Below, in pieces: positions 12,610-15,587 of a stretch of 64,000 nt of DNA. Location: positions 186,001 to 250,000 of the forward strand of contig NZ_ARWI01000001.1 in assembly GCF_000478585.1 (NCBI RefSeq), written 5' to 3'. The notes under the pieces are model-generated. The model ran no database searches. It was given only the letters and a program-made list of their open reading frames with translations, and had not been told where the DNA came from. This DNA is from Thiomicrorhabdus sp. Kp2 (GTDB lineage: Bacteria; Pseudomonadota; Gammaproteobacteria; Thiomicrospirales; Thiomicrospiraceae). Position numbers and translations under genes: made by a program. Positions within the stretch are counted from its first letter, which is position 1. Each line of letters starts with the position of its first letter.

Positions 12610-13686
12610 TTGACTAAAAACGCCTCAAAAATCCTCTCAGAAAACGTGATTAATAAAAATCTAAAGCAGGCGAATAGCGCATGTGGCTTTAGTGTTGCCC
12701 CGATGTTGGATTGGACTGATAAGCATTGTCGATATTTTCATCGTCAGTTAACTAACCAGGCCTGGTTATATAGCGAGATGGTCACCACTGGGGCGATTAT
12801 TTATGGTGATAATTTACCGCGTTTCCTTGGTCATAACCCTTCAGAGGTGCCTGTAGTATTACAGCTGGGTGGCAGTCACTCACAAGACTTAGCTCGTTGT
12901 GCAAAGCTTGGTGAAGAGTGGGGTTATTCTGAAATAAACTTAAATGTAGGCTGCCCAAGTGACCGAGTACAAAATAATATGATTGGCGCTTGTCTATTGG
13001 GGCACCCTGAGTTGGTTGCCGAAAATATTGCGGCTATGAAGGCCGAGGTAAATATTCCTGTTACCGTGAAAACTCGAATAGGCATTGATGATCAAGAAGA
13101 TTTTGAAACCTTGCAGAATTTTGTAGAAGGTTTAGTGAAAGCGGGTGTGGATGGTGTGATTATTCATGCAAGAAAAGCTTGGTTGCAAGGGTTGTCTCCT
13201 AAAGAGAACCGTGAAATTCCTCCTTTAAAATACGATTGGGTTCATCGTATTAAAGCAGAATTTCCAGAATTAGATATTGCGGTTAATGGTGGAATCACCT
13301 CTCATAATCAAGCTTTACAACATTTTGAATCTTATGAAGGTATGCCTGCTCTTGATGGGGTGATGTTAGGTCGAGTCGCTTATGAGCAACCTTTTATACT
13401 GTCAGAGGTAGACTCCCTCTATTATGGTGCTGATATAACGAATGTTAGTAGATTGGATATTTTAGAAAAAATGTATCCCTATATTGATAATCACTTAACT
13501 CATGGTGGTAAGTTAATTCAAGTAACTCGCCATATGCTTGGGCTGTTTCATGGATTGCCTGGTGGTAGAATCTGGCGTAGACACCTGTCTGAAAATGCAT
13601 TTAAACAAACATCAGGTATTGAGGTTGTTCAGCAAGCCTATCAGATGGTTGCGGCAGAAATTCAAAGGATGGAAGATAGACAATGA
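12610..13686 (+). CDS. dusA: tRNA-dihydrouridine synthase A
   Basis: This 358-residue FMN enzyme reduces uridines 20/20a in the tRNA D-loop. Signature APMLDWTDKHCRYF (residues about 31-44), catalytic Cys in NVGCPSDRVQNN around 113, FMN-binding KTRIGID around 152, and HARKAWLQGLSPKENREIPPL typical of DusA. The start is uncertain: TTG at 12610 gives an N-terminus about 20 residues longer than usual with no good ribosome-binding site. The stop overlaps the xseA start (ATGA), so translation is coupled. Confidence 0.93.
   Translation: MTKNASKILSENVINKNLKQANSACGFSVAPMLDWTDKHCRYFHRQLTNQAWLYSEMVTTGAIIYGDNLPRFLGHNPSEVPVVLQLGGSHSQDLARCAKLGEEWGYSEINLNVGCPSDRVQNNMIGACLLGHPELVAENIAAMKAEVNIPVTVKTRIGIDDQEDFETLQNFVEGLVKAGVDGVIIHARKAWLQGLSPKENREIPPLKYDWVHRIKAEFPELDIAVNGGITSHNQALQHFESYEGMPALDGVMLGRVAYEQPFILSEVDSLYYGADITNVSRLDILEKMYPYIDNHLTHGGKLIQVTRHMLGLFHGLPGGRIWRRHLSENAFKQTSGIEVVQQAYQMVAAEIQRMEDRQ
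12755..12766. repeat. Palindrome ACCAGGCCTGGT, copy 4 (within dusA)
   Basis: Read in the frame that encodes N-Q-A-W (TNQAWLYSEM). Confidence 0.95.
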
Positions 13687-15317
13687 CCTTCTTGGATGTG
13701 CCTTTTAGAGAAAAAGAGCAGGCCAAAGCCCTTGGTGCGCGCTGGGATGCGGTCAGTAAACGCTGGTATGTGCCAGAGGCTTTGTCTGATGAGATCGATG
13801 CATTTCAAAAATGGTTACCTATTAAACAAAACACCGTCAATGGTGATTTAGCAGGTGATTTAGCAGGTGATTTAGACCCTTATTCTCAAACTCTTGATTT
13901 TGGTGCTTTAAAGACAGTAGAAGAGCAAAAGGGCACTAAGCTATCAGTGGTCTTAAATAACGTACAAGCCGTTTTAAGGCAGGGCTTTCCTGGTGGAGTT
14001 TGGGTCATTACGGAAATTGCAAACATTAATACGCGCCGTGGTCATGTCTATTTAGAACTTACTGAAACCAATGATTTTGGTCAAGCTATTGCAAACTGTC
14101 GTGGAATGATTTGGCAAAGCCAGGCCAGTCGTTTGCTTGAGCGTTTTCAAGTCACAACAGGTAGTGAATTAGCGATAGGTCAAAAAGTATTAATTCTGGC
14201 AGAGGTTAATTTTCATGAACAGTATGGATTTTCTTTTGTTATTCAGGATTTAGATCCGAGTTATACGCTCGGTGAACAAGAGCAGCGTTTAAATCAAATA
14301 AGAAAAAATCTAATTAAAAAGGGTATTTACCAGCAAAATAAAAACTATCAATTGCCTACCGATTATTTTCGTATTGCCGTTATTGCGCCTCCCGAAGCAG
14401 CTGGTTTGGGGGATTTTAGAGCAGATGCTGATGTTTTGCAAAAGAACCATATATGCCAGTTCAACTATTTTTACAGTAGTTTTCAAGGTGAGGCCGTTGA
14501 AACCGAGATGCTTGAGGCGTTGACAGCAGTTCATTCACTTCATCAGACCAAGCCATTTGACGCCTTAGTGATTATTAGAGGTGGTGGCGCAAAACTCGAC
14601 TTAAATATGCTAAATATTGAGAGCTTGGCAGAGGCATTTTGTTATGCGCAGCTACCCGTTTTTTCTGGAATTGGACATGAAAGAGATAACACCATCCTAG
14701 ATGAAGTTGCGCACAGTCGTTTTGATACACCGAGTAAGGTAATCGGTTTTATTAAAACTCAAATTGTTCATCAAGCAAAGAATGCTAATTTAAATTGGAT
14801 TAACATTGAGCAATCTAGCCGTCTTAAGGTTCAAGGTTTTAAGCATCAAATAAACGAAATGCATAATACAATGACTCGAAATAGCTTAAAAATAGTGCAT
14901 GGATGGCAACAAAAATTAGAGCCTCTTAGTTTTAATATACGCAGATTAAGTGAAACCAAAATTCGGCAAGTGGATTACAGTTTAGATGTATTAAACCAGC
15001 AAATACACTCACAAATTAATCAGCAAATGAAATTGATCCATCACGATGTTGAGCAGTTAAAAGAGCTGGTTTTTCAAGGAGCTAAACGCTCTGTAGCAAG
15101 CCAAAAACAGCAGATTATTCAGTCTATTTCCTTTATTTTGAGTTCAGGACCAAAGGCGCAATTAAACAGGGGGTTTAGTATTGCTAAACGCCCAGATGGC
15201 GTTCCAATTACCACGGCTAAAGAAGCATTAAAAAACCAGTGTATTGAACTTGAATTTTCCGATGGTGCCATACAAGCTGAAATACCAAAAAATCAAACCA
15301 TTAAAGAGGTGAAATAG
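13683..15317 (+). CDS. xseA: Exodeoxyribonuclease VII large subunit with N-terminal DUF5710-like domain
   Basis: This 544-residue protein is about 90 residues longer than standard XseA. Residues 1-50 (LDVPFREKEQAKALGARWD, then RWYVP) match the DUF5710 module often joined to primases and DNA-processing enzymes. A linker with a DLAGDLAGDLD repeat (residues about 55-66) follows. XseA proper begins near residue 78 with an OB-fold (GGVWVITEIANINTRRGHVYLEL) and continues with the nuclease domain (IIRGGGAKLDL, FSGIGHERDNTILDEVAH, ARFDTPS-like HSRFDTPSKV) and a long helical region. ExoVII degrades ssDNA in repair. It overlaps dusA by 4 bases and precedes xseB. Confidence 0.93.
   Translation: MTFLDVPFREKEQAKALGARWDAVSKRWYVPEALSDEIDAFQKWLPIKQNTVNGDLAGDLAGDLDPYSQTLDFGALKTVEEQKGTKLSVVLNNVQAVLRQGFPGGVWVITEIANINTRRGHVYLELTETNDFGQAIANCRGMIWQSQASRLLERFQVTTGSELAIGQKVLILAEVNFHEQYGFSFVIQDLDPSYTLGEQEQRLNQIRKNLIKKGIYQQNKNYQLPTDYFRIAVIAPPEAAGLGDFRADADVLQKNHICQFNYFYSSFQGEAVETEMLEALTAVHSLHQTKPFDALVIIRGGGAKLDLNMLNIESLAEAFCYAQLPVFSGIGHERDNTILDEVAHSRFDTPSKVIGFIKTQIVHQAKNANLNWINIEQSSRLKVQGFKHQINEMHNTMTRNSLKIVHGWQQKLEPLSFNIRRLSETKIRQVDYSLDVLNQQIHSQINQQMKLIHHDVEQLKELVFQGAKRSVASQKQQIIQSISFILSSGPKAQLNRGFSIAKRPDGVPITTAKEALKNQCIELEFSDGAIQAEIPKNQTIKEVK
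13842..13877 (+). repeat. 12-bp tandem repeat in the xseA linker
   Basis: GGTGATTTAGCA occurs twice in tandem followed by a third copy differing in the last two bases. It encodes the GDLA repeat of the linker and is a candidate length-variable site. Confidence 0.85.
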
Positions 15318-15362: not shown

Positions 15363-15587
15363 ATGACACAGTCAGCAGAAAGTTTTAAAGAGAATTATCA
15401 AAAACTACAAGAGATTGCACAAAAATTAGCGAACAGCGGTGAAGTTGATATAGATGAGCTTGTACCCATGGTTGATGATGCCACGAGAGCTTACCAGCTA
15501 TGTAAATCTCGAATTGATGCGGTAGAAACAGCACTTAATACAAGGCTTGACATAGAGGCTGAACAAGATCAGTCAGAAGGAGTTTAA
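15363..15587 (+). CDS. xseB: Exodeoxyribonuclease VII small subunit
   Basis: This 74-residue helical protein has the XseB pattern FKENYQKLQEIAQKLANSGEVDIDELVPMVDDATRAY and an acidic tail. It lies 45 bases downstream of xseA, the partner subunit. The gap contains no terminator. Confidence 0.93.
   Translation: MTQSAESFKENYQKLQEIAQKLANSGEVDIDELVPMVDDATRAYQLCKSRIDAVETALNTRLDIEAEQDQSEGV

Follow-up and report, generated by a model that had tools for sequence, protein, structure and literature searches.

A DUF5710-headed exonuclease VII large subunit in Thiomicrorhabdus: a known enzyme in a conserved variant form that has drawn little notice

In a 64,000-nucleotide stretch of the genome of Thiomicrorhabdus sp. 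Kp2 (contig NZ_ARWI01000001.1, positions 186,001 to 250,000; hereafter the window), we describe an xseA gene whose product, the large subunit of exonuclease VII (ExoVII), begins with a DUF5710 domain joined to the enzyme by a linker (Table 1). The source genome (one contig, 2.73 Mb, completeness given as 100) contains a single match to the Exonuc_VII_L model, namely this XseA, and a single match to DUF5710, which also lies within it. The DUF5710-XseA fusion is genuine: a familiar enzyme occurs here in a variant that is conserved and has attracted little attention. No report of it was found in the literature searched, where a query on plasmid-encoded ExoVII returned a single paper, on Yersinia in plasma; the architecture may already be catalogued in domain databases.

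The first-pass annotation, made from the sequence alone, had claimed a DUF5710-like domain at the N-terminus of a complete XseA, and profile searches bear out both parts: the DUF5710 model is covered in full and well above its cut-off, an OB-fold domain precedes the catalytic domain, and NCBIfam recognizes the protein as XseA. The extension had also been held to be absent from E. coli XseA, and DUF5710 was indeed found in none of the 14 control genomes, E. coli and B. subtilis among them. E. coli XseA (PDB 8txr) shares with the window protein the OB-fold, the catalytic domain, the coiled coil, the C-terminal part, and an xseB partner; it differs in having neither DUF5710 nor linker, and its 91-bit match is aligned only from residue 91 of the window protein.

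Table 1. Features of the xseA locus (positions within the window).
Feature	Position	Strand	Basis
xseA, exonuclease VII large subunit, variant branch, 544 aa	13683..15317	+	open reading frame (ORF), Pfam, NCBIfam (TIGR00237 xseA, 246.6 bits, cut-off 180); ATG start
DUF5710 domain, aa 1-46	13683..13820	+	PF18974, 66.7 bits (cut-off 26.5, full profile 1-44 covered); predicted fold
Linker, aa 47-82, predicted disordered	13821..13928	+	predicted local distance difference test (pLDDT), low identity
12-bp perfect tandem repeat GGTGATTTAGCA x 2.8, within linker	13842..13875	+	Tandem Repeats Finder (TRF) score 68
OB-fold nucleic-acid-binding domain, aa 87-190	13941..14252	+	PF13742 tRNA_anti_2, 56.4 bits; branch-specific residues
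Exonuclease VII catalytic domain, coiled coil, C-terminal part, aa 217-533	14331..15281	+	PF02601 Exonuc_VII_L, 187.4 bits (cut-off 35.9)
Asp244, candidate catalytic residue	14412..14414	+	D conserved across branch and canonical rows
Arg299 in RGGG motif, candidate catalytic residue	14577..14579	+	R conserved, branch and canonical rows
His332-Glu-Arg-Asp335 (GHxxD motif), candidate catalytic residues	14676..14687	+	H, D conserved
xseB, exonuclease VII small subunit, variant type	15363..15587	+	NF045605 xseB_Acin_var, 93.6 bits
dusA (tRNA dihydrouridine synthase A)	12610..13686	+	ORF; NF008774 DusA, 491.9 bits

The fusion is the rule across the family Thiomicrospiraceae, and it is not a general gammaproteobacterial trait. 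The family sample comprised 62 genomes from 7 genera (the order sample consists of the same 62); XseA protein matches were found in 59 of these and DUF5710 in 60, and all 59 genomes with an XseA match carry the fusion, with the match starting within residues 1–4. In one of them (G027) the XseA match is split into two pieces of one frame, and one family locus is named Thiomicrospira. Across a class sample of 369 genomes, 336 gave an XseA-type match and 22 contained any DUF5710, while the family XseA profile scored at least 313 bits in 15 genomes, 180 bits in G176 (a shortened gene), and at most 146 bits in the others. DUF5710 lies in the XseA ORF of ten class genomes (G000, G017, G042, G053, G081, G108, G163, G279, G312, and G366), and the fusion is interrupted in two more, by a frame change in the linker (G378) or by an in-frame stop after 71 codons (G258); G110, G248, and G352 belong to the 15 high-scoring genomes and have no DUF5710. 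The survey of homologues suggested at the first pass therefore excludes a universal gammaproteobacterial extension. A phylum sample (398 genomes, E≤1e-60) yielded three carriers, G000, G489, and G719, the latter two without DUF5710. In the class sample, f103 was uniform across its three sampled genomes. No second XseA was detected in G000, G017, G042, G053, G312, G279, G163, G108, G110, G352, or G248, each of which gave a single match (candidates scored, 3/5 in G017 and 3/4 in G042). ExoVII with an XseA of this type is the only ExoVII detected in the family.

The two interrupted loci differ in layout. In G378 (L069, minus strand), DUF5710 and XseA lie in overlapping open frames of 116 and 473 aa, and the switch of frame falls within the linker, close to seven consecutive C residues; the gene may be split, the sequence may contain an error, or slippage may occur. 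In G258, DUF5710 occurs on three contigs (L050, L058, and L060) and is followed by XseA sequence on two of them, in frames that are short or interrupted by stops, whereas G128, of the same genus, gave no XseA match; the pattern resembles a mobile gene that was acquired recently and is now decaying.

The first pass saw a complete XseA joined to a module; the fusion is real, and the enzyme, rather than being an XseA of the E. coli type, belongs to a separate XseA branch that is also plasmid-borne, a point missed at the first pass. In a tree of the XseA core built without the N-terminal part (51 rows, comprising 16 family, 24 other branch, and 11 canonical sequences; left out were the shortened G176 row, the three canonical loci L081, L083, and L087, as well as L171 and 25 viral-contig loci), the branch is split from the 11 canonical rows at 100/100 support, several rows are long-branched, and the inner forks are unsettled. 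Canonical gammaproteobacterial XseA also differs in the OB-fold, where columns 137, 155, and 159 hold residues in branch rows and are gaps in all 11 canonical ones. Asp244, Arg299, His332, and Asp335 are present in 39/39 branch rows (L050 being excluded from these counts) and in the same columns of 11/11 canonical rows, and we take them to be the counterparts of the residues that carry out catalysis in E. coli ExoVII. Where histidine is expected, the alignment shows alanine in the E. coli structure 8txr, as would be seen in a dead mutant. XseA of this branch thus looks like an intact enzyme, and we infer that it is active. At present, this second, mobile ExoVII branch is annotated as plain xseA.

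The small subunit follows the same division. The window XseB fits the NF045605 xseB_Acin_var model far better than the general TIGR01280 xseB model (42.7 bits), and an XseB of the same NF045605 type accompanies Acinetobacter-type ExoVII, and the A. baumannii large subunit (L124) is itself a member of the XseA branch; the XseA proteins of A. baumannii and A. johnsonii differ from that of the window in having no DUF5710. Of 46 loci tested, 45 have an xseB relative as the neighbor of xseA (none was found in L070), and next to ten xseA genes on plasmids the small ORF reaches the NF045605 cut-off in seven cases, with L123 (27.2 bits), L125 (21.6 bits), and L126 (14.4 bits) falling below it. XseA and XseB therefore mostly travel as a matched pair, and on these model scores XseA of the branch is usually paired with a variant XseB.

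Plasmids supply close parallels to the architecture of the window protein. A tblastn search gave 750 plasmid records, many of them probably matched through DUF5710 alone, and 82 of which cover at least 80% of the query. DUF5710-XseA is carried by Polaromonas plasmid pPNAP03, by Variovorax plasmids, by an 882-kb Vibrio plasmid, and by L171, whereas branch XseA without DUF5710 occurs on Pseudomonas megaplasmids, Burkholderia pBVIE01, a Stutzerimonas plasmid, an Acinetobacter plasmid, and the A. baumannii chromosome. The Polaromonas and Variovorax proteins have the same order of DUF5710, linker, and XseA, with an adjacent xseB of the NF045605 type (104.9, 103.9, and 98.5 bits); their XseA identities to the window protein are 34.0% (L121), 32.6% (L122), and 43.2% (L127, query 3–361 only), and they differ in being plasmid-borne and in having no dusA in the stretches shown. 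A gene for single-stranded DNA-binding protein (SSB) lies near xseA on both pPNAP03 and the 882-kb Vibrio plasmid.

Some of these records deserve separate mention. The A. baumannii sequence L124 (NZ_CP104448.1) is filed as ‘plasmid unnamed1’ and, judging by its 4.09 Mb, is a chromosome. On Burkholderia pBVIE01 (L129, 6580–7551), a gene annotated as a 5'-3' exonuclease directly follows the xseA-xseB pair, possibly forming a plasmid cluster for processing single-stranded DNA (ssDNA). Branch XseA without DUF5710 was also found in 26 viral-catalogued loci, namely L170 (Moraxella phage Mcat6) and L172–L196 (IMG/VR contigs); 22 of them (L173–L194) encode proteins with 69–80% identity to A. baumannii XseA. 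These viral-catalogued copies are either prophage cargo or host flanks drawn in by prediction.

DUF5710 alone is predicted to fold as beta-alpha-beta-beta-alpha (mean pLDDT 80.3, predicted template modeling score 0.55); within the full-length AlphaFold model it is poorly placed (block means 49–66), because most alignment rows do not have the domain. The same model gives a pLDDT under 50 for residues 44–82 and a long helix spanning residues 350–487. Mean pairwise identity among 30 family rows (435 pairs; 31 rows were aligned and one from a metagenome-assembled genome was excluded from the count) is 65% in DUF5710, 13% in the linker, 70% in the OB-fold, 72% in the catalytic part, and 39% in the coil, and linker length ranges from 16 to 47 aa. 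A conserved head on a linker of such low identity suggests that DUF5710 is under selection and that the linker is a tether. Ten positions of the domain are invariant or nearly so among 23 rows (P7, K11, K15, L17, G18, A19, R20, W21, W28, and W44), and six of these are basic or aromatic (K11, K15, R20, W21, W28, and W44).

Outside ExoVII, DUF5710 is common on plasmids yet named in only one paper of the literature searched: the window domain matched 1233 of 72,556 plasmid records at E≤0.01, of which 1023 are typed as conjugative. Its plasmid partners include a primase with ArdC-N, MPTase-PolyVal, and Toprim domains (L198, L199), Toprim (L200), and a HerA/TrwB-like ATPase (L204); on viral contigs it is joined to a UvrD helicase (L096) and an FtsK-like protein (L119). 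It also occurs in plasmid proteins annotated as TraC primases, and PMC11233732 describes it as accompanying Rep_3 plasmid initiators. A huge plasmid protein annotated as a strawberry notch-like NTP hydrolase (L203, 1–6383) has two DUF5710 copies, and the DUF5710 pair of L059, a protein of genome G308, is nearly identical to that of L203. A profile search of the PDB with DUF5710 gave Ika8 at E 6.1e-05, although none of its individual stretches passed, along with three matches that were weaker still. A BFVD fold search gave no match at E≤0.001, its top matches being DUF5710 proteins and then, among unnamed ones, DnaQ-type epsilon subunits (ranks 10, 15, and 18), and a scan of viral contigs with query A1 found no relatives.

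The DNA-handling partners and the basic or aromatic conserved positions favor a DNA-docking role, and we lean towards the reading, which we hold to be somewhat probable, that DUF5710 is a tethered module that would bring ExoVII to ssDNA or to junctions of single- and double-stranded (ss/ds) DNA; the targeting role proposed for the module at the first pass is likewise plausible. Each XseA in the XseA-XseB assembly would contribute one DUF5710 copy on a tether of about 35 disordered residues. The domain would capture ssDNA or an ss/ds junction, and this capture would raise the local substrate concentration for the OB-fold and the nuclease, so that ExoVII would be directed to forks and gaps and, in the case of plasmids, to intermediates of transfer or replication, with DUF5710 itself being dispensable for cleavage. 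Several observations count against docking. DUF5710 stands without any other Pfam domain in 7/10 viral-contig and 4/8 plasmid proteins, and one viral-contig copy is fused to DUF2213, no obvious DNA enzyme; sequence searches gave no solved DUF5710 structure, and a fold search of the PDB returned no Foldseek match at E≤0.001 and a best VIA-align Z of 2.5; and no binding data on the domain were found. Furthermore, 12 of 40 branch rows have no DUF5710 (those of Acinetobacter, the Pseudomonas megaplasmids, and f50 included), and at none of these 12 loci does the domain appear in any frame of the available DNA, so the domain is accessory and branch ExoVII exists without it. ExoVII has a simple assay, and a comparison of the enzyme with and without DUF5710 would show what the domain does. 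Recruitment without DNA contact is the main alternative: DUF5710 could act as an adaptor between proteins, binding SSB or a replisome component, for example, and so bring ExoVII to forks, which we consider unlikely, if well short of negligible. ExoVII recruitment to forks has a precedent in B. subtilis, where, according to PMC3000357, XseA is an SSB partner that was recovered by Tap-tag with SSB and forms GFP foci that need the SSB tail, and the ssb genes near two plasmid xseA genes fit such a role; B. subtilis has no DUF5710 match, so SSB alone recruits ExoVII there. The basic or aromatic character of six of the ten conserved positions and the DNA enzymes among the partner domains tend to favor docking over the adaptor. 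That DUF5710 is instead a leftover of plasmid origin, a hitchhiking mobile-element domain of little chromosomal function, seems to us improbable. Its scattered occurrence would fit: on the XseA tree, DUF5710 presence requires six changes, at least four of them forced by starred branches, and a single clade of DUF5710 rows is rejected by the approximately unbiased (AU) test (p-AU 0.004), which means that the domain was lost or gained more than once and rules out one clean gain without loss. However, the family has kept DUF5710 in all 59 genomes with an XseA match and conserves it about as well as the enzyme core.

How the branch came to the family is a separate matter, compatible with any of these functions. 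For the family’s rows placed in a single clade, the AU test gives no rejection (p-AU 0.506), and a tree of the DUF5710 domain (49 columns, 4/73 inner branches starred) does not separate one fusion from several. In an rpoB tree covering 33 hand-picked genomes out of 38 (G176 counted as a branch carrier; not included were G081, G355, and G292, which gave no rpoB match, G071, which is in two pieces, and G361), carriers are scattered, with seven changes, at least six of them forced by starred branches; the number drops to five on leaving out the two genomes that gave no XseA match. Two same-genus pairs, G258/G128 and G366/G138, differ in branch XseA. We take this to mean that the branch may well have spread horizontally, displacing native xseA, a reading based on one gene tree with long branches and on plasmid carriage. 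Alternatively, the branch could be an ancient paralogue, kept vertically here and lost in most Gammaproteobacteria. The grouping of f1 with f48 on the rpoB tree, both with branch XseA and upstream dusA, and the uniformity of f103 would agree with this; the scatter of carriers argues the other way, though a single gene, long branches, and hand-picked genomes make it weak evidence, and the differing same-genus pairs and plasmid carriage point in the same direction. We therefore regard vertical descent as a minority view, rather unlikely.

A possible likeness of DUF5710 to HARP (PF07443; found in SMARCAL1 and phage proteins) was first suspected from a motif, ahead of any fold search: the two resemble each other in an RW(D/N)xxxKxW(Y/I)VP-like motif (RWD-xxx-KxWYVP), and the predicted strand-helix order is compatible. 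In the sources consulted, HARP consists of a sheet of five strands plus two helices, is important for fork reversal, and also occurs in T4 UvsW (PMC4666394), and HARP domains fused to other SNF2 proteins are said to confer annealing activity (PMC4035279); the consulted portion of PMC5512222, on polyvalent proteins, mentions neither HARP nor ExoVII or exonuclease VII. A Pfam search gave no HARP match in 23 DUF5710 members at E≤10, in a scan limited by HMMER filters that drop most matches above about 0.1. Foldseek placed the solved HARP 4o66 at ranks 18 and 30 of 75 (E 5.6 and 6.9; TMq 0.46 and 0.45; not significant), 4o66 was not among the VIA-align rows listed with Z≥2, and in BFVD, HepA/HARP-named proteins stood at ranks 33 and 35 and a SWI/SNF-named phage protein at rank 34 (E 1.5–1.6, not significant). 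For profile comparison, four pieces of HARP repeats were taken from phages of Bacillus; the Pfam HARP model scores 44.4 bits on the whole phage protein L207 and 15.0, 24.4, and 28.5 bits on three of the pieces scanned alone (cut-off 25). Aligned by hhalign, DUF5710 and phage HARP gave a probability of 43% (P 2.5e-4) with only 15 columns aligned; the local score of 22.3 exceeds the best of 71 controls (12.2), and the global mode was not significant (probability 1.0, score 11.8). The controls were 60-column windows cut from the alignments of XseA and of XseB, together with HARP columns in reversed or shuffled order. HARP itself was found in 0/299 Pseudomonadota genomes, and a viral-contig scan with the phage HARP protein found no relatives. 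The resemblance to the fork-binding HARP domain of SMARCAL1 is thus an unproven and weak lead from motif and predicted fold. The fuller scenario, in which DUF5710 would be a prokaryotic and phage relative of HARP that mobile elements fused to primases, helicases, Rep proteins, and ExoVII, and in which a plasmid ExoVII displaced the chromosomal one of the family, is tentative, and we are inclined to doubt it as a whole; if true, a HARP-like head would make ExoVII junction-directed.

The 12-bp tandem repeat that had been noticed in the linker is real. TRF reports a period of 12 and a 100% match, with the top score among 22 rows in the window, and the end first noted, 13877, carries the third copy on to its last two bases, which are mismatched. 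No other perfect tandem array of at least 34 bases (period 4–40) occurs in the window, 15 dinucleotide shuffles gave none, and the repeat scan found, besides this repeat, a few weak pairs. The 36 repeat bases translate as GDLAGDLAGDLD. A functional or phase-variable element is unsupported, since the repeat keeps the reading frame, is found in 0/30 other printed family linkers, and sits in a linker that varies freely; it appears to be a neutral, incidental duplication within the tether. The variation in copy number between strains suggested at the first pass likewise has no support: no genome of the same species was found, and the nearest one has 74% identity in the XseA protein.

Upstream, dusA adjoins xseA in 34/34 family loci tested, the window included. 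The start of xseA at 13683 is supported by the overlap of its ATG with the dusA stop, the two sharing ATGA (13683–13686), and this overlap suggests that the genes are probably translated as a coupled pair. In f48 (G108), which groups with the family on rpoB, dusA is also upstream (33.5% identical), so this placement of xseA may predate the family. Promoter-like sites number 8, fewer than expected from a mean of 13.6 in shuffles, and terminator-like sites number 4, compared with 2.7 in shuffles (standard deviation 1.4).

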